From: Phycisphaeraceae bacterium | GTDB taxonomy: Bacteria; Planctomycetota; Phycisphaerae; Phycisphaerales; UBA1924 | Assembly (NCBI GenBank): GCA_021297895.1 | Contig: JAJTHN010000011.1 | Coordinates: 1-42,746 of the forward strand | Reading direction: 5' to 3' | DNA length: 42,746 bases | In this document: one piece after another, positions 5,520 to 15,355 of the stretch | How positions within the stretch are numbered: position 1 is the first letter of the stretch | Layout of the letters: every line of letters starts with the position of its first letter | Notes under the pieces: model-generated | Seen by the model: only the letters and a program-made list of their open reading frames with translations | Told to the model about the DNA's origin: nothing | Databases searched by the model: none | Made by a program: the position numbers and the translations under genes

Positions 5520-6902
5520 TCAGTTCCCCGCCCGGCCCGTGAGGGTGTACAGACGGTTCTGGTTCAGGATCGGCACGTTCGTCGCCGCGGCCTGGGTCAC
5601 CAGCCGGTCATACTCGCGCTGGATCTGCTGAAGCCGCAGGAAGTCCTGGATCTGCCCGATCGGCGCATCGGTCGGCGGCTGGGGCGGCAGCACCGGTCGC
5701 GAGCCAAGGATCAGGAAGTCGACATCGCCCGTGAGCTGATCGCTCAGGCGGCCACCCCACGCCGAAATCATCGCCTTGATCTCGCCGGCGCCCTCGGGTG
5801 TCGAGGTGCCCGTGAGATTCGGGTCGAAGTTGCCGAAGACCACGAAGGTGTAGACCTTGTTCGGGTCGTACACCGGGTTGGCGATGACATCACCCTTGAC
5901 GATGCCGTGGCCGCGACGCGGGCGGATGACCCGGGCGGTGGACCCGTTCTCCTCAACACGCGTCACCTCGATCGTCGCCTTGCCAGCGCTGTACTCGCCG
6001 GTGCTGCTCGGGCGGATCGCCGCGGCACTGGTGTAGACCTCGAAGGTCATCCCGACAAACGCCTTCTGATTCCTGCCGAGGTTCAGGTAAACCAGCGACG
6101 GGTCGATCGAGTCAAGACCGGCGATAAGTCCGTCAACCAGCGCAGCCTCATCGGCCGGACGCAGGCCCTGGTTGCCGCGGCCGCGGGAGAGCTCGCTGAG
6201 CTTGTCCTGCAGGATCCTGTTCTCGTCCTCGAGCTTCTTCTTCTGGTCCATGAGCCGGGCGCGCTCGTCGTTGGCCTCGGCGCGGATCCGGTCGATCTGG
6301 GCCTTCATGTCGCTCGTGGCGCTCTCGATCTGCGTCCGGAACGTGTTCGCGTTGGCGCCGAACTGGTTCACCTCGTCCGTGGCCTTGCCCAAGGCCGCGG
6401 CGGTGCTGGCCGACATCGCATCCACGCGGTCGCGCAGCTCCTTCATCGTGCTCTCGGCGGCCAGACGAGCATCGTCTGCCTCTTTCGCAGCTCGGCGGGC
6501 TGCGTCCCGCTCCGTCCGCAGGCGGCTGATCGCGCTGGCCAGGCTCGTCGCGTTGTCGTTCTCCTTGAGGATCGTGTTGATGTTCGACACGAGATTCGAG
6601 AGCCGTCCGGTACCCGTGCCGGTCACCTTCTCGCCGAAGGATCGGGACAGATCGCTCAGGTGCCCGACCAGGCTCTTGCGTGAGCCGCGAGCCTCCTCGA
6701 TGAGTTCACGCGTGGCGGGCTGGTTCCGCTCGCTATCGCGGACGATGTCCGTCGTCTCCGTCCGCAGGCTCGCCAGAGTCTGGCGCTCGGTGTTGCGCTG
6801 GTTGTACATCACCAGTGTGAGCACGAAGAACGTGATCGTGGTGATCACCAGAACCACCACGGTAACGACCAGGCCGGTCGACGAACTGGAGCGGGCTGCC
6901 AT
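5520..6902 (-). CDS. Membrane-anchored coiled-coil protein with a BRCT-like C-terminal domain
   Basis: The start is an ATG preceded by AAAGGTGAT, giving 460 aa; the longer frame to 7097 has no such site. Residues about 8-33 are one transmembrane helix (GLVVTVVVLVITTITFFVLT). Residues 40-270 are mostly charged heptad-like helix, with long runs such as RLRTERDAARRAAKEADDAR and KAQIDRIRAEANDERARLMD, a coiled coil. A beta-rich middle domain of about 80 residues follows (AFVGMTFEVYTSAA, ATIEVTRVEENGSTARVIRP). From about 348 the sequence YTFVVFGNFDP, then GAGEIKAMISAWGGRLSDQL and TGDVDFLILGSRP, fits the BRCT fold pattern (beta, helix, 'GG', hydrophobic DFLILG). Function unknown; an envelope scaffold is one option. 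BRCT assignment is by pattern only. Confidence 0.75.
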   Translation of the reverse strand: MAARSSSSTGLVVTVVVLVITTITFFVLTLVMYNQRNTERQTLASLRTETTDIVRDSERNQPATRELIEEARGSRKSLVGHLSDLSRSFGEKVTGTGTGRLSNLVSNINTILKENDNATSLASAISRLRTERDAARRAAKEADDARLAAESTMKELRDRVDAMSASTAAALGKATDEVNQFGANANTFRTQIESATSDMKAQIDRIRAEANDERARLMDQKKKLEDENRILQDKLSELSRGRGNQGLRPADEAALVDGLIAGLDSIDPSLVYLNLGRNQKAFVGMTFEVYTSAAAIRPSSTGEYSAGKATIEVTRVEENGSTARVIRPRRGHGIVKGDVIANPVYDPNKVYTFVVFGNFDPNLTGTSTPEGAGEIKAMISAWGGRLSDQLTGDVDFLILGSRPVLPPQPPTDAPIGQIQDFLRLQQIQREYDRLVTQAAATNVPILNQNRLYTLTGRAGN

Positions 6903-7180
6903 GCAATCACCTTTCAGAGCGCCTCGCGGCGCAGACGCGGACCCTGTGCGCCGACATCCGTCGACGCCGCCAAGACGATAAGTGTCGCGTCTCCGAGCCC
7001 CGGGGTCAAGATGCCCGAAGAGAACCCGACCAGACCGACAACTTTCCCCAGCCACTGGACACACGCGGCACCCGGGCCTATGCCGTAGCCCATTCACCTA
7101 CACTCCGGTACGGGGAGCCCACCGTTCCCGGGCGGCATCCGCTATCGTCAGTCCGCTCCAACGGCCGATCCTGAGACTCC

Positions 7181-8074
7181 ATGTCCACGCCGCGACAAAC
7201 CGACCGTGGCCCCGACCATCCCGAAACCGCCGGGCCGGTCCCCCTCGTGCTCGTCGGCGGCGGGGGTCACGCGATGGTCGTCGCCGAGGCCGCGCTGCTC
7301 TCGCGCTATCCGGTCGCCGGCTTCCTTGATGACGACCCCGCCGCGCCGCTTTCGGCGATCCTCATCGACCTGCCCCATCCATTCTCTACGCCGGCGCACC
7401 TGGGCGGTCTGGTGGAGTTCGAGCGGCTGGTCGACCGCCACTGGATCATCGCTGTTGGCGACCTGCGCACCCGCCGCAGCATCCTGCGTCAGCTCGCCTC
7501 CCGCGCCGGAGTCCTCGGTCTGTCCGACCACCCTGCGGTCACGCCGTCGAACGCGGCCCCCGGGCCCGAGACCGCCGGCTCCGCCGACTCGGGCAGCGAG
7601 TCGAAGTGGCCCGCAACTGGTGGGACCAACCCGATCGGCGCATCCCTTGCGCACCCGCGACTGGTGTCGACCAGCCGCATGCCCGAGCCCTCGCCCACAT
7701 CGACCACCGCCGGCGCGCGGTCGGTCGTTCATCCCGCGGCGTTCATCTCACCCTCGGCGCTGGTCGGTCCGGGTGTGTACGTCGGCCCGCGCGCTCTGAT
7801 CCACGCGCGGGCGCGCATCGGGGCGCACGCCATCATCAACTCGGGGGCGATCGTCGAGCATGACTGTGTGGTCGAGGAGAACGCGCACATCGCCCCGGGT
7901 GTCGTGCTCGGCGGCGCTGTACACGTGCACCACGACGCGATGGTGGGGCTCGGCGCACGGGTTCTGCCCGGTGTCCATATCGGCGCCGGTGCGACGGTGG
8001 GCGCCGGCGCGGTGGTCACGGCCCCGGTTGCTCCGGGCCGGACCGTCGTGGGCGTGCCGGCGCACGAGCCCTGA
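7181..8074 (+). CDS. NeuD/PglD-family sugar O- or N-acyltransferase
   Basis: The N terminus has the Rossmann-like sugar-binding start of NeuD/PglD proteins (VPLVLVGGGGHAMVVAEAAL, then VAGFLDDD). The C terminus from about residue 185 is a left-handed beta-helix of hexapeptide repeats (FISPSALVGPGVYVGPRALI, ARIGAHAIINSGAI, VVLGGAVHVHHDAMVG). The catalytic His is expected in VEHDCVV. Such enzymes acetylate a nucleotide-linked amino sugar for surface glycans. A Pro/Ser/Thr-rich stretch of about 60 residues (about 120-180) separates the two domains and is longer than usual, apparently a disordered insertion. The gene is convergent with the PYP operon and close to the terminator at 8083-8119. The exact substrate cannot be read from sequence. 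Confidence 0.85.
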   Translation: MSTPRQTDRGPDHPETAGPVPLVLVGGGGHAMVVAEAALLSRYPVAGFLDDDPAAPLSAILIDLPHPFSTPAHLGGLVEFERLVDRHWIIAVGDLRTRRSILRQLASRAGVLGLSDHPAVTPSNAAPGPETAGSADSGSESKWPATGGTNPIGASLAHPRLVSTSRMPEPSPTSTTAGARSVVHPAAFISPSALVGPGVYVGPRALIHARARIGAHAIINSGAIVEHDCVVEENAHIAPGVVLGGAVHVHHDAMVGLGARVLPGVHIGAGATVGAGAVVTAPVAPGRTVVGVPAHEP

Positions 8075-8159: not shown

Positions 8160-8588
8160 TCAGGCCCGCTGGCAGAACACCCAGTTGGTCCGGGTGGCCG
8201 GGTCGCGGTACATGTGGATCTTGACGTTGGTGGGCTTCATCTTGAAGTTGAAGGTGTAGGGGAACGCGAGGTTCAGGTTGTTCGCGGCGACGCCCTTGCG
8301 GAACGAGCCGTAGAACAGCCCGTTGTTGGTGCAGGGGGCGATTTGCGTGAAGTAGTGACGGCCCTCGAAGTTCGGGATCGCCACGCCGCCCAGCTCGGAC
8401 TGGTAGCGGTTGACCATCACGACCTTGCCCGAGTCGTCGATCTTGACGCAGCCGAAGTCGAACGAGTCGATGTCGGCGCGGGTCAGGTTCGCGAGGTTCG
8501 CGAAGACCTCCGGCGGAACGAAAGAGCCGGGGGTGCTCGGGGCGTTGCGGTTCATCATCCGGTCACGAAGCATTGAAGCGCTGCTCAC
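8160..8588 (-). CDS. Photoactive yellow protein (PYP)-like PAS photoreceptor
   Basis: From residue about 36 the protein follows PYP end to end: IDSFDFGCVKIDDSGKVVMV, HYFTQIAPCTNN, LFYGSFRKGVAANNLN, FPYTFNFKMKPTNVKIHMYR and WVFCQRA at the end. The cysteine that carries p-coumarate in PYP (C69) is present as C86 in APCTNN. Spacing from the GK/GN turn to this Cys is the same as in Halorhodospira PYP. Chromophore-pocket positions differ: Y42 is V59, E46 is Q63, T50 is G67 and R52 is V69, while Y94, F96 and M100 equivalents are kept. A disordered N-terminal arm of about 30 residues replaces the PYP N-cap. The start is a GTG overlapping the upstream TGA (GTGA) with AAGGAGAC before it, so translation is coupled to the 8585-8929 gene. 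PYP homology is clear; photoactivity is inferred. Confidence 0.88.
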   Translation of the reverse strand: MSSASMLRDRMMNRNAPSTPGSFVPPEVFANLANLTRADIDSFDFGCVKIDDSGKVVMVNRYQSELGGVAIPNFEGRHYFTQIAPCTNNGLFYGSFRKGVAANNLNLAFPYTFNFKMKPTNVKIHMYRDPATRTNWVFCQRA

Positions 8589-8929
8589 TGGTTGTCTCCT
8601 TGCGTGTTCTGGGTGCTGGCCTTCCATTCGGCCTTGATGACGGGCTTGTCACCATCGAGCTCGAATGTGACGGTCTTGGTGGGATACTGGCTTTCCAGGT
8701 GCTGGCTCAGCTCCTGCACGGTCTGGAGCAGCTGGAAAGTCGCGGGGTTCCCGGTCGCCGGGAGGTTGCCGTAGGTCTGGTACAGGTCGTTGAGCTGGGA
8801 TTCGAGACTCCGCACCATGTCGACGATGCTCTCCGCGTCCGACGCGCCGATTTCCTGCTGCAGCCAGTCGCGCTCGGCGTACAGCGCTTCGAGCTGGTCC
8901 TCCATCGTTCCGTTTGTCACTTCGTTCAT
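8585..8929 (-). CDS. Hypothetical helical protein of the PYP operon (114 aa)
   Basis: The ATG at 8929 has AAAGGAT upstream and gives MNEVTNGTMEDQLEALYAER. The longer frame to 8986 lacks a site. Residues 8-85 are predicted helical with coiled-coil spacing (QLEALYAERDWLQQEIG, then SIVDMVRSLESQLNDLYQTY and LLQTVQELSQHLESQY). The last 30 residues turn beta-like (KTVTFELDGDKPVIKAEWKA), ending in a polar tail. It overlaps the PYP start by four bases, which implies stoichiometric co-production and perhaps a direct complex with the photoreceptor. I do not recognise a family. No membrane segment or DNA-binding motif is visible. Confidence 0.75.
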   Translation of the reverse strand: MNEVTNGTMEDQLEALYAERDWLQQEIGASDAESIVDMVRSLESQLNDLYQTYGNLPATGNPATFQLLQTVQELSQHLESQYPTKTVTFELDGDKPVIKAEWKASTQNTQGDNQ

Positions 8930-9024
8930 CGCGGGATCCTTTCTGAGAGAGCGTGCTTGACCCGTCTCGACGCCCGCCCGACGCACTTCAGGGCCGACGC
9001 CGCTTCGTGTTTCTTTGCTCCGAG

Positions 9025-9564
9025 TCAGGCCGCGCGACGGATCGGCTGGGCCAGGAACTCGGTGATGGTCGTGATATCGGTCGGCGTCAGCAGGCCCTCG
9101 ACCTCGCCGAGGAGCATGCTGATCGATGTGCCGCGGAAGGCCGACTCGGCATCCGCGACGCCCGTCCGGAAGATGCAGTAGTTCGCCTTGGTGTTCAGCG
9201 CGATCCAGCGGCTCTTGAGCTCGATGTAATTAATCGCAAGAGTCTCGGCGATCTGCTCATCGTCCTCGATCGTCCGCAGAAGATTGCAGAGATCATCGCG
9301 CAGCGCTGTGATCCACGCGAGCGTCCGCGCGACCATCGCCGGGTCCGCGTCCGGCCAGGTCTCCAGCGCTTCGCGGATCTTCGTTTCGATCTGAGGGTTG
9401 GTGAGGGTCTCGATTGCGCGCTGGAGCGTCGACGGTTCTCCGCGGAACTTTGTGGTTTGCCGGTCGGATGGAACTCGGTGAGTCGCCTCTCCGTCCGGCA
9501 CCCTTGCATCGGACGGTTGTGCGCCGCGGACAAGGTCTGACTTCTCACACTTTCGCTCATCCAC
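9025..9564 (-). CDS. Hypothetical helical protein, first gene of the PYP operon
   Basis: The frame opens with a GTG at 9564, but the first 45 residues are polar and the true start is uncertain. The ordered part begins near STLQRAIETLTNPQIETKIR and is all-helical: DPAMVARTLAWITALRDDLC, EQIAETLAINYIELKSRWIA, SISMLLGEVEGL, TDITTITEFLAQPIRRAA. No signal peptide or transmembrane helix. It is 95 bp upstream of the coiled-coil gene in the same orientation and faces away from the CheA-like gene. I do not recognise the family. A partner or output protein of the photoreceptor is one reading of the context, not supported by any motif. Confidence 0.7.
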   Translation of the reverse strand: MDERKCEKSDLVRGAQPSDARVPDGEATHRVPSDRQTTKFRGEPSTLQRAIETLTNPQIETKIREALETWPDADPAMVARTLAWITALRDDLCNLLRTIEDDEQIAETLAINYIELKSRWIALNTKANYCIFRTGVADAESAFRGTSISMLLGEVEGLLTPTDITTITEFLAQPIRRAA

Positions 9565-9982
9565 CTTCGCGGGCGGGAGTCCGGCTCGTCACAGCCCGCA
9601 CAGTCCGCACAGGCCTACCGCCGGAACCCAGCCATCACTCCCGAGCCCCCGGCCCGCGGGCAACCGCAAGCCATCCATCGGCTCACGCGCACTTGCCGCG
9701 CGTTGCCCCGATCGCCTCCTCTCCCTGCCCGGCGTAACCGCCGCCGTCGATCCGGGAATCACCCCATCGGATCACATCCACAGGGTGGCTGTCACCGGGA
9801 CACCATCTTTGGGTGGCATCTTCGATCCGGCGGCGTCCTTACCAGAAGGACGCCCGCGTTTGGTTCGATAAGACGAGGGGAAGTCATGCGGGCAACCAAG
9901 TGCCTCGCACGCCAGCCGACGTTGTGAATAGTCCCGCAGCGCCAACCCCAGACGAGCGATCGAAACGCAGGAGCGACCGGAC
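9565..9982. promoter_or_regulatory. Divergent intergenic region between the PYP operon and the CheA-like/TAL pair
   Basis: This 418-bp gap must carry promoters for both sides if both are transcribed. No clear -35/-10 pair or long inverted repeat stands out to the eye. The plus-strand side ends with AGGAG nine bases before the GTG of the 9983 gene. The open frames within it are Arg/Pro-rich and unsupported. Confidence 0.35.
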
Positions 9983-12900
9983 GTGAGCCCTCAACCCTCG
10001 CAGCCCATGCAGCCAAGCCGACCGCCTGCGTCACCCGTGGGCGGGCACGATGAACTCCTCAGCGCGCTCGATGAACAGGCCCGCCTGGCGCAGACACTGC
10101 GCGAACTCGTCCGCGAAACGCTCGAACCATCCACCGCGAGCGGGGACTCCGCCTCCGCTTCCGATGCCACGCCGGCCGACGCGAGCGACACCGCCGCTCC
10201 GACGACCAGCGATCCTGACAAACCCGCCGACCCGTCCGCACGCGAGGCCCTCGCCGGTGAGGCGTGCGCGTGGCTCGATAAACTCCGCGCTCTGCCCATG
10301 TCCGAAGGCGCGCAGCCGATCGCGGAGCTCGCCGACGTTTCCTCGCGGGCGTTGCGGAAGGCACTTGAGACCGTCGGCGCGCATGACGATGCGACGATGG
10401 CCCTGCTTGATGAGCTCGCGGCGACCGTCGAGAGCATGATCGGCGAGTTCCGTACCGCTGGAGGCGCTCGCGCGCCGGAACGGTTGCTCGCAGAGCTCCG
10501 CGATATCGCCGGCCCTCAGCAGGACCAGCCGACCCCTGACGCAACGACGGCATCGGCGGGCGAAGTCATCACCGATGCTGCCGAGTCGGTCGCCGATGCA
10601 CCCGCGAGCCCGCCGCAAACGCTCCAGCCGCAGCAGCCGCCGGAACCACCGGTCGCCGAAACACAGCCCCTGGCACTGCCGAATGCCGAGCCGGAGCCCG
10701 ATGGGGTCATCGAGCCGATCGCCTCGTCCGAGCCACTGAACACCGAGCCCTCAGCGAACATCGAAGCTCTGCCGGAGGCAACGCTTTCCGACGCGCAGCC
10801 CCCCGAGACCGTCGACGCGGTGCTCCCGGCGAGCGATCCTGATCCCGCCGCGGCGTTGTCGGAGCTCTCCGCCCAGCTCGCCGCACTGGCCGATCGCATC
10901 GACCTGACCGAGCCACCCGCCCCCGCCACCTCTGCGGAGCCCGCCACGCCCGTCGGGTTCGACACGCTCGCATCGCCGACATCCGATCCCGCGGCCGAAG
11001 CGGAACTTCAGCTCCCTTCCGAAGCCACACCCACCGACGAAACCCCGTCCGAGCCCGAGGCGGTCCAGCCCGCGGCCGAGCAGTCCTTCGACTCGCCTTC
11101 ACCTGGTGAGTCTGATCCGGCCTCTGAAGCGCCGATCGCCGCGGCACAGCCTGCCGTCGCTGCGACGGACTTCGATCTGTCGATCGATCCGCAGTTCACG
11201 ATGCCGCACCCGCCCGAGCCGCCGGTCGCCCTGGTCGTCGCGCCGCCCGCGATCGACTTCAACGCGATCAATACGGACACGGCCGAGACTTCCGCATTCT
11301 CCGAACCGGAGCCGGAGCCCATTGCCGAGGTTCCCGCGGACGCGACCGAGGCCCTCGCCGACGCCAACACGGAGAACCCGGTCTCGTTCGAAGTCCCCGC
11401 TGAGCCGTCTGTCGAGCCCGCGGCCGATTTCCCAGTCGAGATCGCGACCGATCCGGTCGCCAGCTTGCCCGAGGCAACCCCAGACCAGCCCGTCGAGCCC
11501 GTCGAGCCCGCCGCGCTATTCGTACCGCCTGTCGCCGACGCTCCGGCGGTCGACGCCGTCTCGGCGGACGCGCCGTTGCCGTCGGGCGAACTGACCGCCG
11601 AGCAGATGGCCGCGCTGATGTCCGGCGGACTCGACCCGACCCCGGGCGACGCGATGGCCATCCCCGCGGCACAGTGGGGGTCCTTCCCGCTGTCGCTCGA
11701 GGCCAGCCGGGTCGAGCAGTTGCAGTTCATGGTCGCCGCGGCGAAGGTGCACCTTGAGAACCTGAACGTCGGCTTGGCCCAAGCGGCGGAGTTCAGCACG
11801 CGAGCCGACGGCTGCCAGACGCTCCGCGAACTGGCCAACGCGGTCGACGTCATCGCGGAAGCCTTCAACTTCGACTGCCTCGGTACGCTCTCACGCCTGT
11901 ATCGCGAGGCCCTCAACGCGTTGCCGACGGTCAACGACGAGGTGCTCCCGGAACTTCTTGTCCGCGTTGTCGCCATCGCGGGCCTGTTCGAGCAGTACCT
12001 GCTCGGGCTGGAAGTCGGCATGGAGATGCGCTGGCAGACCGAACTGATTTCAAGACGCGTCGGCCGACTTTGCTCGGGTCGCACGCTCGCTGAGAACATC
12101 ACCGGCTGGCACAAGGGCGAGGTCGCGCGCCTGCTGGAACTCGACGGAGTGAACGAGCCGATTAGCCCCGTACCGGTCGAGGGCGGACCGAGCGTTGAGA
12201 TTGCTCCGGGCTGGTTCTGTCACCCGGTGCTCGCCAAGTGGTTCGATCCCGAGGCGGCCGCCGCCGCCGCGGCCGCGGCCGCCGCGAACACCGCTGCGCA
12301 GAAGCAGGCCGAGGGCAACACCTCTCTGGTCCGTGTTCCGGCGGTTGTGCTCGACAAGCTCCTGGACACGGTCTCGCAGCTCGTGCTGAGCAAGAACCGC
12401 GTCGTAAGCCTCTCCCGCGCGCTGCACACCGAAGAGGGGCGTCAGCATCGCATGGAGGAACTGGCGACGACCGCCGACGATCTGACCCAGCTCTGCTCGG
12501 ACCTGCAGTTGATCATGATGCAGGCCCGCATGCAGCCGGTGGGCAAGCTCTTTGAGCGCTACCCGCGCGTCATCCGTGATGTCGCTAGCGTCGCCGACAA
12601 GACCGTCGAACTGAAGCTCGAAGGCGGCGCGACGCTCGTGGACAAGCACGTGTTCGAGGGTCTGGGCGAGCCGCTGGCCAACCTCCTTCGTGCCGTGGTG
12701 CAGGGCTCGATCGAAAAGTCCGATGCCCGTACCGCGCTGGGCAAGCCCGCGACCGCCGTGCTCGTGCTGCGGGCGGAGAACCAGGGCTCGCAGGTCTTCA
12801 TCACCCTCTCTCACGACGGCACCCCGCCCGACCGCGTCGCCATCTTGCAGAAGGCCGTCGAAAGCGGGATGCTCACCGAGGCCGAGATGGACTCCATCGC

Positions 12901-13630
12901 CGAGAACGACATTCCCTCGCTGCTCTTCCGCGATGGCAGCGGCGATGCGGCTCTGGCCAAGGTCGGTGCGCAGGTCCGCTCCATCGGCGGCACGATCGGT
13001 TTCCGTCCTGAGAAAGACGGCATCACGCAACTGCTCATCACCGTGCCGCTGAGCGTCGCCATCATCCCCGCGGTCATGGTGCAGGTCTCCAGCGAGATCT
13101 ACGCCGTCCCGCTCCAGAGCGTCGCCGAGATCGTGCGCCTCGCCGATCATCCCGTCCAGACCATCCGCTCGCACTGGGTCATGCGCCTGCGCGAGCGTGT
13201 CGTGCCCATGGTCGACATCGCACGCACCATCGGCCTGGCCCCGAGCCTCTGCGCGGCCGGCACCCCCGGCACCGAAACCGCCGCCGCGAGCCCGACCTCC
13301 AAGCCCCAGACCCTCGTCGGCGACCGCTTCGCCATCGTCGTCAACGCCGGCGATCATCACGCCGCGCTCGTCGTCGACCGCGTGGTCGGCAAGCAGGACG
13401 TGGTCATCAAGCAACTCGAGGGCCACACCGGCGACGCCGGGAAGGGCACGGGAGATGCCGGGTTCTTCAGCGGCGCGACCATCCGCGACGACGGCCGGGT
13501 CAGCCTCATCTTCGAGACGCAGCGACTCATCGCGGCCGCTCAGAACGACGCCAGCGAAAAACTCGCGTCGATCTCCAAGGGCGAGCTTGAGTCCACCCCC
13601 GTCACGACCGATGTCACCTCCGCCGCGTGA
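9983..13630 (+). CDS. CheA-like pseudokinase: disordered arm, degenerate HPt, dimerisation, degenerate ATPase and CheW domains
   Basis: GTG start with AGGAG upstream; 1215 aa, nearly twice a normal CheA. Residues 50-530 are an acidic Pro/Ala/Glu/Thr-rich disordered arm. At about 537, LTAEQMAALMSGG resembles the FliM N-terminal CheY-binding peptide. Residues 570-690 follow the HPt (P1) helices, but the H-box reads ANAVDVIAEAFNFDCL where active CheA has AHTLKGSAG: the phosphoacceptor His is Asn. Residues 757-772 are poly-Ala. From about 781, VPAVVLDKLLDTVSQLVLSK and the RMQPVGKLFERYPRVIRDVA segment match the P3/P4 boundary. In P4 the N-box reads LLRAVVQGSIE (normally RNAIDHGIE), the DxGxG box reads HDGTPPD, and no GxGMDVV box exists. 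From about 1026 a CheW-like P5 domain is intact (YAVPLQSVAEIVRL, HHAALVVDRVVGKQDVVIKQ). Autokinase activity is unlikely; a scaffold role is inferred. The TAL-like gene follows after 42 bp. Confidence 0.85.
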   Translation: MSPQPSQPMQPSRPPASPVGGHDELLSALDEQARLAQTLRELVRETLEPSTASGDSASASDATPADASDTAAPTTSDPDKPADPSAREALAGEACAWLDKLRALPMSEGAQPIAELADVSSRALRKALETVGAHDDATMALLDELAATVESMIGEFRTAGGARAPERLLAELRDIAGPQQDQPTPDATTASAGEVITDAAESVADAPASPPQTLQPQQPPEPPVAETQPLALPNAEPEPDGVIEPIASSEPLNTEPSANIEALPEATLSDAQPPETVDAVLPASDPDPAAALSELSAQLAALADRIDLTEPPAPATSAEPATPVGFDTLASPTSDPAAEAELQLPSEATPTDETPSEPEAVQPAAEQSFDSPSPGESDPASEAPIAAAQPAVAATDFDLSIDPQFTMPHPPEPPVALVVAPPAIDFNAINTDTAETSAFSEPEPEPIAEVPADATEALADANTENPVSFEVPAEPSVEPAADFPVEIATDPVASLPEATPDQPVEPVEPAALFVPPVADAPAVDAVSADAPLPSGELTAEQMAALMSGGLDPTPGDAMAIPAAQWGSFPLSLEASRVEQLQFMVAAAKVHLENLNVGLAQAAEFSTRADGCQTLRELANAVDVIAEAFNFDCLGTLSRLYREALNALPTVNDEVLPELLVRVVAIAGLFEQYLLGLEVGMEMRWQTELISRRVGRLCSGRTLAENITGWHKGEVARLLELDGVNEPISPVPVEGGPSVEIAPGWFCHPVLAKWFDPEAAAAAAAAAAANTAAQKQAEGNTSLVRVPAVVLDKLLDTVSQLVLSKNRVVSLSRALHTEEGRQHRMEELATTADDLTQLCSDLQLIMMQARMQPVGKLFERYPRVIRDVASVADKTVELKLEGGATLVDKHVFEGLGEPLANLLRAVVQGSIEKSDARTALGKPATAVLVLRAENQGSQVFITLSHDGTPPDRVAILQKAVESGMLTEAEMDSIAENDIPSLLFRDGSGDAALAKVGAQVRSIGGTIGFRPEKDGITQLLITVPLSVAIIPAVMVQVSSEIYAVPLQSVAEIVRLADHPVQTIRSHWVMRLRERVVPMVDIARTIGLAPSLCAAGTPGTETAAASPTSKPQTLVGDRFAIVVNAGDHHAALVVDRVVGKQDVVIKQLEGHTGDAGKGTGDAGFFSGATIRDDGRVSLIFETQRLIAAAQNDASEKLASISKGELESTPVTTDVTSAA

Positions 13631-13672
13631 CGCACCGCCCGCCTTGCACACCTCCCAGACCCGCATCGCACC

Positions 13673-15355
13673 ATGCCCTCAACAACCCCGACGATCAACA
13701 CGCGACCGGATGATGCCGACCTTCCCGCGGTCCCCGCCGCGCCGGACGCCCAGCTCTCGCGCAACCATCTCGCCGATGCGCTCAGCGGCCGCCCGATCGG
13801 CCAGCCGGATGCCGAACGCGTGGCGAATAGCAGCCACATCTCGCTCATCGATCACGTCGGCCAGCCGCCGCAGCTGCTCGGCCGCAATGCCGAGTTGTCA
13901 CCCGAGCGACTGGCGAAGCTCGCACGCTCGGGAATGTCCGTCGACTTCACCGCCGACACCTGGGCGCAGATCGAGCGCTCCGCCGGCCTCCTTCGCGCCG
14001 CCCACGAACGCGGCACCAAGATCTACGGCCTGACCACCGGCTTCGGCCCCCTCGTCACGTTCTCCGCCGACGAGTGCGTCCGCATGCAGGGCACCGGCCT
14101 GATCTCGCACCTCGGCGCGGGCTTCGGTGATCTCGCCCCCCCGGTCGTCGTCCGCGCCACGCTCCTGGCCCGTGCGCACACCATCGGCCAGGGCCACTCG
14201 GGCATCGCGCCGCGCGCCGCCCGCGCGTTCCTCGACCTGATCAACTCGGGCCTCTGCCCCGCCGTCCCCGCCGTCGGCTCTGTCGGCGCATCCGGCGACC
14301 TGATCCCTCTCGCTCACGTGGCTCGCGTTCTGACTGGCGAGGGCACCGTCGTGCTGCAGGGCAGGCGCGTGCCCGCTCGCGAAGCGCTCCAGGGTCACGG
14401 TCTGTCACCCATCGAACTTTCCGGCCGCGATGCGCTGGCGCTGGTCAACGGCACCGCGTTCATGACCGCCTATGCCGCCCTCGCGCTCGACGATGCCGAG
14501 CGACTCATCGCCCGCGCCGAGGCCATCACCGGTTGGATCTTCTGCCTGCTCGGCGGCCGCACGCAGGCCCTCGATCCGCGCCTGCACACCGCCCGCGGCC
14601 ACCCGGCGCAGGTCGCCAGCGCCGCCGGCATCCGCGAAGAGGCCCTCCGCTTCGGCGATTGCGACGACCCCTCGCGCCCCCTGCAGAATGTCTACTCGCT
14701 CCGCTGCGCACCGCAGTTCCTCGGCGCGTGCCGCGATCAGCTCGCTCACGCCCGCGCGATCATCACCCGCGAGCTCAACGGCATCAACGACAACCCGCTG
14801 GTCTGCGATGACGGAACCGGCGACATCCTCCACGGCGGGAACTTCCAGGGCCAGCAGATCTCCTTCGCCGCCGATGCGATCAACAGCGCGATCGTGCAGA
14901 TCGCCGTGCTGGTCGAGCGTCAACTCGATGTCCTGCTCAACCCGGAACTCAACGGCAACGCGCCGCTCCTGCTCGCCTGGAACCCCGGCGCGACCAGCGG
15001 CATGGCCGGAGCGCAGATCACCGCCACCGCCCTGGTCGCCGAGATGCGCCACCACGTCGGCCCCTGCGCCGTCACCAGCATCCCCACCAACGGCCGAAAC
15101 CAGGACGTCGTCTCCATGGGCACCATGAGCGCACGCCAGGCCTTCGATCAGTCGCGCAGGCTCTCCGGTGTGCTGGCCATCTGCGCGCTCGGGGCCCATC
15201 AGCTCAACTTCCTCCGCGCCAGCGGCAAGGCCCCCGGCCGCACCACCCCCGCGCCGGACTGGATGCCCCGCGTCGATGGCATCCGTCACGACCGCGCCTT
15301 GTACGACGACATCGAGCGCATCAGCCAGTCGTTCCTCCAACCGCTCGCCGGCTGA
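13673..15355 (+). CDS. Aromatic amino acid ammonia-lyase, tyrosine ammonia-lyase-like (HAL/PAL/TAL family)
   Basis: Non-oxidative deamination of His, Phe or Tyr through the MIO cofactor, formed from A206-S207-G208 in SVGASGDLIPLAHV. The catalytic Tyr loop reads IYGLTTGFGPLVTF (Y118), the substrate-selecting segment reads GLISHLGAGFG (H146), and later blocks are YSLRCAPQFLGA, ELNGINDNPLV, HGGNFQGQQ, ITATALVAEMR and TNGRNQDVVSMGT. From memory, GLTTGFGPL, TATALxAEMR and TNGxNQDVVSMGT are the forms in Rhodobacter tyrosine ammonia-lyase, whereas classical HutH has YGINTGFG and a different ending (SxNQEDHVSM). H146 fits Tyr or His and argues against Phe. Length is 560 aa with an 85-residue N-terminal extension. 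No hut genes are nearby; a PYP gene is 5 kb away. Family certain; Tyr preference is inference. Confidence 0.9.
   Translation: MPSTTPTINTRPDDADLPAVPAAPDAQLSRNHLADALSGRPIGQPDAERVANSSHISLIDHVGQPPQLLGRNAELSPERLAKLARSGMSVDFTADTWAQIERSAGLLRAAHERGTKIYGLTTGFGPLVTFSADECVRMQGTGLISHLGAGFGDLAPPVVVRATLLARAHTIGQGHSGIAPRAARAFLDLINSGLCPAVPAVGSVGASGDLIPLAHVARVLTGEGTVVLQGRRVPAREALQGHGLSPIELSGRDALALVNGTAFMTAYAALALDDAERLIARAEAITGWIFCLLGGRTQALDPRLHTARGHPAQVASAAGIREEALRFGDCDDPSRPLQNVYSLRCAPQFLGACRDQLAHARAIITRELNGINDNPLVCDDGTGDILHGGNFQGQQISFAADAINSAIVQIAVLVERQLDVLLNPELNGNAPLLLAWNPGATSGMAGAQITATALVAEMRHHVGPCAVTSIPTNGRNQDVVSMGTMSARQAFDQSRRLSGVLAICALGAHQLNFLRASGKAPGRTTPAPDWMPRVDGIRHDRALYDDIERISQSFLQPLAG

Follow-up and report, generated by a model that had tools for sequence, protein, structure and literature searches.

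The locus and its host genome

The 42,746-nucleotide contig JAJTHN010000011.1 from a Phycisphaeraceae bacterium (assembly GCA_021297895.1), which was analysed as a whole and is referred to here as the window, carries at positions 8160-15355 five genes organized around a homologue of the photoactive yellow protein (PYP). Three of them form an operon on the minus strand, in the order ORF179, CC114 and PYP homologue. ORF179 (9025..9564, with a true start that is uncertain within 9489-9564), called OA hereafter, encodes a predicted all-helical partner domain whose relatives are fused to CheA-like proteins elsewhere; CC114 (8585..8929) is a helical, coiled-coil-like partner recognized by profile matches at PYP loci and by relatives that adjoin PYP or are fused to it; and the PYP homologue (8160..8588), identified by the model TIGR02373, by matches to PYPs in the PDB and by its pocket residues, starts with a GTG lying in a GTGA overlap with the CC114 stop codon, with AGGAGA 6 nt upstream. 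Facing away, on the plus strand, are the genes for a CheA-like pseudokinase of 1215 residues (9983..13630), assigned from Pfam, from its alignment with motif-keeping CheA proteins and from an AlphaFold2 (AF2) model compared with the PDB, and, after a spacing of 42 bp, for an aromatic amino-acid ammonia-lyase of the tyrosine-ammonia-lyase (TAL) type (13673..15355), assigned from PF00221, from its residues and from a tree. A preliminary description had reported this arrangement, with the chromophore-binding Cys in the PYP homologue and an intact CheW domain in the CheA-like protein, and the coordinates, Cys69 and the CheW match all agree with it. It had also presented the locus as self-contained, while remarking that a ligase was missing: there is indeed none among the five genes, and self-containment has to be given up, since a ligase-like gene lies beside a second PYP on another contig. 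This second, canonical PYP and the residues Val42 and Gln46 in the window PYP go beyond that first reading.

The host genome (3.48 Mb in 84 contigs, of which the window is one, and 97% complete) also holds the components of a classical chemosensory system. A CheA with Hpt, dimerisation, HATPase_c and CheW domains is encoded on contig C76, in a cluster that, as read from the sequence, presumably holds CheB, CheR and CheY as well. There are three CheW-domain proteins in all, the window protein included, together with four matches to methyl-accepting chemotaxis proteins (one at a contig end) and five to flagellin.

Conservation among relatives

Across 150 genomes the window-type PYP is found in three: the host, G061 and G054, the last being 88% complete. 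A sample of the class returned matches to it in 3 of 397 genomes at E<=1e-4, the identity being 31% in one case, and PYP matches occur in 7 of 72,556 plasmid records, every one below 60% identity. OA is present in the same three of the 150 genomes, and lyases with at least 60% identity are confined to them (the copies of G061 and G054 stand at 61%), so that the co-occurrence of PYP, OA and this lyase type is more than chance. Some lyase match exists in 112 of the 150 genomes, the remaining hits all lying at 31-41% identity and at most 262 bits. The CheA-like protein has a match in 97 of the 150, among which G061 is clearly the nearest (44%, 493 bits).

The gene order in G054 is OA-CC-PYP-ligase-lyase on a single strand, and the PYP, with Tyr42 and Gln46, is the only one found in that genome. 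In G061 the order is OA-CC-PYP-ligase, followed by two plus-strand genes and the lyase, and in a further planctomycete locus, L069, OA, CC, PYP and pseudo-CheA stand together; elsewhere in the L069 genome a lyase of 58% identity immediately follows an AMP-binding gene, which has only 22-29% identity to the G054 and G061 ligases. The pseudo-CheA gene diverges from the OA-CC-PYP operon in the window, in G061 and in L069, with gaps of 418, 262 and 154 bp, respectively. The conservation of the neighbourhood, on which the preliminary description had made its proposal depend, is therefore found in three further planctomycete genomes.

Two of these loci have neighbours of their own. The genes between ligase and lyase in G061 (L008:10252-13250) encode an HpaB-like 4-hydroxyphenylacetate 3-monooxygenase (732 bits, cut-off 885), which might hydroxylate p-coumarate, and a HemN-like radical SAM protein. 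Contig C22 of G054, a Phycisphaerales genome of UBA7812, carries gas-vesicle genes, two of the GvpA family and one of the GvpL/F family (L011:1341-13445, L062:3784-4761), and also a CheW-receiver (CheV-like) gene.

A CheA-like protein without kinase motifs

The CheA-like protein consists of a long N-terminal part rich in Pro, Ala and Glu, a dimerisation domain, a degenerate ATPase domain and an intact CheW domain. Two of the Pfam domains used here to recognize a CheA are matched (CheW at 83 bits, H-kinase_dim at 35 bits), whereas Hpt (PF01627) and HATPase_c gave no match up to E 0.1, and no His occupies the Hpt position, in an alignment that is weak there. Compared with the host's own CheA, four nucleotide-binding elements are gone from the proteins of the window, G061, L069 and G054 alike: the N box (NSCDHG), the latter half of G1, the F-box GFST and, in its entirety, the G2 stretch (SGRGVGMD). 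Pfam CheW is found in all four and HATPase_c exceeds its cut-off in none (17.1 against 26.4 bits in G061); the H-kinase_dim match of the G054 protein is below its cut-off. The kinase-dead CheA of the preliminary description is thus what the domain scans and the motifs both point to.

The fold itself is predicted to have been kept. The AF2 model of the window CheA core (mean pLDDT 79.7) is still CheA-like, with PDB comparisons giving Z 24.7 for 3ja6, Z 24.0 (2.0 A over 175) for the ATPase domain 1i58 and Z 18.3 for the CheW-like domain 4jpb; the alignment behind the model also included motif-keeping CheA proteins, which may pull it towards the CheA fold. The motifs are gone in these four planctomycete proteins. 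At other PYP loci, HATPase_c is above cut-off in the CheA-like proteins of the Bdellovibrionota L093, L095, L100 and L103 and of the planctomycete L097, and so is Hpt in L093, L097, L100 and L103 (L095 remaining below, 17.6 against 24.6).

The ammonia-lyase

The lyase matches PF00221 with 462 bits and has the Ala-Ser-Gly triad, and at the positions of His89-Leu90 in PDB 2o6y it carries His-Leu, together with an NQD motif (Gln where HutH has Glu). 2o6y, whose PDB record is titled 'Putative histidine ammonia-lyase', is the Rhodobacter sphaeroides TAL, with His89 as its selectivity residue; the His-Leu pair becomes Phe-Leu in the mutant chain 2o78. Among 75 aligned lyase rows, His-Leu with NQD occurs in 2o6y, in the window and in 23 other lyases of PYP loci. 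PYP loci account for 42 rows, the window's among them, and the 18 without His-Leu show Tyr-Leu (8), Tyr-His (6), Phe-His (2) or Gln-Leu (2). Ser-His with xED is found in 30 of 30 rows made up of 27 lyases read from other relatives and the second lyase in each of G000 (the host), G061 and G054. The loci with Tyr-Leu are L079, L081, L089, L095, L100, L101, L103 and L136.

In a rapid tree based on 57 rows (4 of 76 rows having been dropped as two duplicates and two fragments, and then 18 of 75 before the tree), the window lyase joins the PYP-locus lyases with a support of 98, the HutH group stands apart at 99, and the branch uniting the window's group with that of 2o6y has a support of only 88. 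The aminomutase 2qve, presumably that of S. globisporus, carries Ser-His and is placed next to the HutH group; 1gkm is presumably the P. putida HutH. A HutH identity, the grouping that the preliminary description had set against its reading, was considered and is rejected on the identity pattern, the residues and the tree, even with HutH still giving the best NCBIfam score below cut-off. A lyase of the TAL type is what these lines of evidence support.

The PYP homologue and its chromophore

The PYP homologue aligns with solved PYPs in the PDB at E about 1e-24 and, from residue 31 to 100, without a relative gap to that of Halorhodospira halophila, in whose numbering it has Val42, Gln46, Tyr62 and Cys69. 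The Cys69 by which the 2022 family survey (PMC9664959) defines a PYP is therefore present, and neither Tyr42 nor Glu46 is kept, which places the protein outside what the consulted part of that survey observes of Cys69 PYPs, an observation that forms no part of the definition. In our table of 88 Cys69 rows (from which L008 and L011 were left out as duplicates, and in which L134 is gapped at 42 and 46), 66 have Tyr42/Glu46/Phe62 and 15 Phe42/Glu46/Phe62; Val42/Gln46/Tyr62 is confined to three, namely the window, L068 (from G061) and L069. Tyr62 occurs in five rows, none of which has Glu46. A Val42 protein may nonetheless be inside the set of 984 PYPs of PMC12826048, because 0.3% of them, in the part of that work consulted, carry at 42 a residue other than Tyr or Phe. 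Within a tree of 87 PYP rows, which is built on few columns and has many open forks, a branch with a support of 98 separates 52 rows, among them all 26 OA-linked PYPs, from 35 rows that include none of these and comprise the H. halophila PYP and the second PYP of the host.

With both of the residues that hydrogen-bond the phenolate lost, ordinary blue-light photochemistry is not to be assumed. Tyr62 may take over a hydrogen bond, and the window PYP may absorb in the near ultraviolet (near-UV). The second PYP of the host, on contig C23, is canonical (Tyr42, Glu46, Thr50, Arg52, Cys69; 173 bits against TIGR02373, above cut-off) and adjoins a 4-coumarate-CoA-ligase-like gene (TIGR02372, 309.8 bits, cut-off 334.7) and a gene for a helical protein that no Pfam family matched. 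The second PYP of the L069 genome is 61% identical to it, with Asp at the position of Glu46. Ligases of the G054 and G061 type gave no match in the host genome at E<=1e-20, other CoA ligases lying outside that search. In three planctomycete genomes a helical protein, OB, precedes the second PYP (L006:15503-15937; L010, frame 6297-7502; L170:5514-5996); homology between OA and OB was looked for and not found (hhalign probability 0.1).

An alternative that is unlikely but has to be reckoned with follows from this pocket: that the window PYP is no longer a light sensor, being instead a PAS scaffold or a sensor of something other than light that keeps Cys69, and that the lyase serves the canonical PYP alone, which has a ligase-like gene next to it in the same genome. 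In the part of PMC9664959 consulted, changes of Tyr42 and Glu46 are reported never to be found together in a Cys69 PYP, and a Y42F/E46Q mutant of the S. ruber PYP is cited as preferring protonated p-coumarate; a pair of this type is thus reported as absent from Cys69 PYPs and as harmful in that of S. ruber. However, G054 has a window-type PYP as the sole PYP found, in one operon with ligase and lyase; in G061 a ligase adjoins the Val42/Gln46 PYP itself; and the full set of Cys69 with Val42, Gln46 and Tyr62 is kept in three genomes.

Partner proteins at other PYP loci

CC114 has no Pfam family above cut-off, and OA, predicted to be all-helical (pLDDT 92.6), has no PDB match to its fold at E<=0.001, by which a new fold is not yet shown. 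Both recur around PYP genes of several phyla. In a set of 80 named loci (the best 80 of 223 confirmed, with shared ancestry among them), OA is encoded no more than 2.5 kb from PYP in 25 and CC near PYP in 39, in 38 of these within 0.65 kb; counts of presence are lower bounds, 24 of the 80 loci holding less than 2.5 kb on one side of PYP. The OA and CC profiles gave no match in 281,192 control bases of PYP-free loci, a control that is one-sided, the profiles having been iterated on the 80 loci themselves.

At some of these loci the partners are part of larger proteins. Fusions of CC with PYP were detected by the profile in L097 and L100 and were read from the sequence in L093, L095 and L103. 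OA is C-terminal in the CheA-like proteins of L093, L095, L100 and L103, whereas in L088, L104 and L136 it is N-terminal, in proteins with Pfam CheW above cut-off. The OA-CheA matches of L081 and L089 are weaker, L081 having no Pfam CheW match, and L079 and L099 are counted as such fusions solely from the joint alignment (hhalign 99.0). Among the 25 loci with OA, 11 have a match to the CheA-core profile at most 5 kb from PYP (L101 being a twelfth, weak and of the histidine-kinase type), as does one of the 55 loci without OA (L132, likewise weak and of the histidine-kinase type); L093, L095, L097 and L103 entered the profile, so that their matches are by construction, and those of L081 and L089 are weak. 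The fusions, with OA and CheA in both domain orders, suggest a wiring PYP-CC-OA-CheA, and thereby strengthen the link from PYP to CheA that the preliminary description had proposed. A different kind of architecture is seen in Rhodothermota/Bacteroidota (L102, L107, L111, L114, L119, L120 and L131), where long proteins with several CC-like segments stand upstream of PYP, some of those in L102, L111, L120 and L131 holding a PYP-like domain without Cys69.

A candidate route from light to the chemosensory array

The reading that we favour, with a confidence somewhat above even, is that the locus provides a PYP-based light input to a chemosensory array, running from the photoreceptor through CC and OA to a dead CheA that acts as a scaffold. 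The lyase would convert tyrosine to p-coumarate, which the 4-coumarate-CoA-ligase-like enzyme beside the second PYP would activate, with subsequent loading onto Cys69. Light would alter PYP, and CC114, bound to PYP, and OA, bound to the CheA-like protein, would relay the change. The CheA-like protein, presumably incapable of autophosphorylation, would dock through its dimerisation and CheW domains into an array formed by the classical CheA of the host, its CheW and the chemoreceptors, where it would bias that kinase and hence the flagella. Chromophore supply and loading, complex formation, docking and the effect on motility, that is, every step from light to array, are what we infer from genes and predicted structures; the signal may plausibly flow through a CheW-type scaffold. 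What the sequences themselves show is the order of the genes, the type of the lyase, the loss of the kinase motifs from a protein whose fold is predicted to be kept, the co-occurrence, the fusions at other loci, and the presence of flagellin and che genes in the host.

Several results weigh against this reading, in addition to the pocket precedents from the family survey. The PYP homologue scores 102 bits (E 2.4e-29) against TIGR02373, below the cut-off of 143.05 bits. The lyase remains below every NCBIfam cut-off, with HutH models scoring highest (404 against 524 bits; 376 against 539 for TIGR01225, with 324 against 501 for the tyrosine 2,3-aminomutase TIGR03832), and its top PDB match is the tyrosine aminomutase 2qve, with 272 bits as compared with 257 for 2o6y. 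The host ligase-like gene and the window lyase are on different contigs, and the ligases of G054 and G061, which share 45% identity, are AMP-binding proteins to which NCBIfam gives no assignment and which have no assigned substrate. As for the scaffold, the G054 pseudo-CheA is barely closer to the window protein than an ordinary CheA (285.5 against 282.8 bits) and lies 16.3 kb from PYP, beyond the gas-vesicle cluster; CheA-core matches occur within 5 kb of PYP in only 11 of the 80 named loci; the CheA-like proteins of Bdellovibrionota (like that of L097) have a CheW match below cut-off or none at all, and no match to H-kinase_dim; and a scan of the locus found no promoter- or terminator-like sites. 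Finally, three GvpA-family matches are present in the host genome, on contigs C17 and C10.

It is because of these last genes that buoyancy is a live rival output. The CheA-like protein might stand outside the motility array altogether and be a scaffold for something else, for instance gas-vesicle buoyancy or the regulation of genes, an explanation that we regard as more doubtful still than the loss of light sensing: the position of gas-vesicle genes between pseudo-CheA and PYP operon in G054, and the disappearance of the kinase motifs and the Hpt match, would fit it, but the protein has an intact CheW domain, one of three in a genome that encodes flagellins, and the window's own contig has no GvpA-family match. 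As to mere chance neighbourhood of an unrelated lyase and CheA-like gene, both are divergent from the PYP operon and share no promoter found in the scan, yet the common distribution of PYP, OA and lyase, the recurrence of the divergent CheA gene in both G061 and L069 and the OA-CheA fusions in other phyla make it very improbable.

A light input to the array by way of CC and OA may also be part of something wider: a device of several phyla by which PYP controls CheA-type proteins, in which the planctomycete CheA has become a dead scaffold, and in which a rebuilt pocket with a protonated chromophore, absorbing in the near-UV, would give two-colour control of one output together with the canonical blue-absorbing PYP. 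This extended version is put forward tentatively, as rather improbable. CC and OA recur, the former fused to PYP and the latter to CheA-like proteins, which makes for a concrete and testable signalling chain. The Val42/Gln46/Cys69 PYPs provide a natural example of what the 2022 survey (PMC9664959), in its consulted part, reported not finding, and they allow one to test whether Tyr62 replaces the lost hydrogen bond. Moreover, a motif-less CheA kept in four planctomycetes would exemplify the scaffolding of arrays by a dead kinase.

Relation to known systems

Links of PYP to CheW (PMC2993699) and to chemoreceptors (PMC9664959) are already known from the consulted parts of these works, and signal transmission by PYP is named in PMC12826048, likewise consulted in part, as an important gap in knowledge. 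The words 'CheW', 'coiled' and 'gas vesicle' are absent from the main texts of PMC9664959 and PMC12826048 (their supplements being outside the search), and the set of PYP, CC, OA and CheA, with its fusions and a motif-less CheA, was not met in the literature examined, which did not extend to the 2012 Meyer review. An apparent wiring of PYP through its recurring partners to such a CheA, close to a lyase of the chromophore-making kind, suggests that bacteria have an undescribed means of feeding light into behaviour.

The closest counterpart as regards the chromophore is the pyp-pCL-TAL operon of H. halophila (PMC12826048), in which PYP is accompanied by enzymes that make and activate the chromophore, and which the order PYP-ligase-lyase of G054 resembles. 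As described in the consulted part of that source, it has no CC, OA or CheA-like partners; the five genes of the window, in turn, include no ligase, and the pocket of the window PYP is changed at 42, 46 and 62. The window lyase shares the His-Leu pair, the MIO (4-methylideneimidazole-5-one) site and NQD with 2o6y, although it belongs to a separate PYP-locus group, joined to 2o6y with the support of 88 given above, and its TAL activity is a prediction.

With regard to the output, the accounts compared were again consulted in part. Leptospira clade-B PYPs adjoin chemoreceptors without sensory domains (PMC9664959), which likewise brings PYP together with a chemosensory component; the partner there is a chemoreceptor, and in the window it is a CheA-like protein with CC and OA. 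Ppr of Rhodocista centenaria (PMC2993699), a fusion of PYP, bilin-binding and kinase parts that binds CheW, is another PYP input to CheW/CheA, but its kinase domain is fused and its binding ATP-dependent, whereas the window has a separate PYP, two partners and a CheA-like protein without kinase motifs. In a survey of CheA proteins (PMC10542144), HATPase_c is reported in every CheA, that of R. sphaeroides CheA3 being non-functional. CheA3 (PMC10542144, PMC6829392) thus resembles the window protein in its non-functional histidine-kinase domain, and differs from it in still having both an Hpt histidine that can be phosphorylated and a phosphatase domain, where the window protein has no Hpt match.

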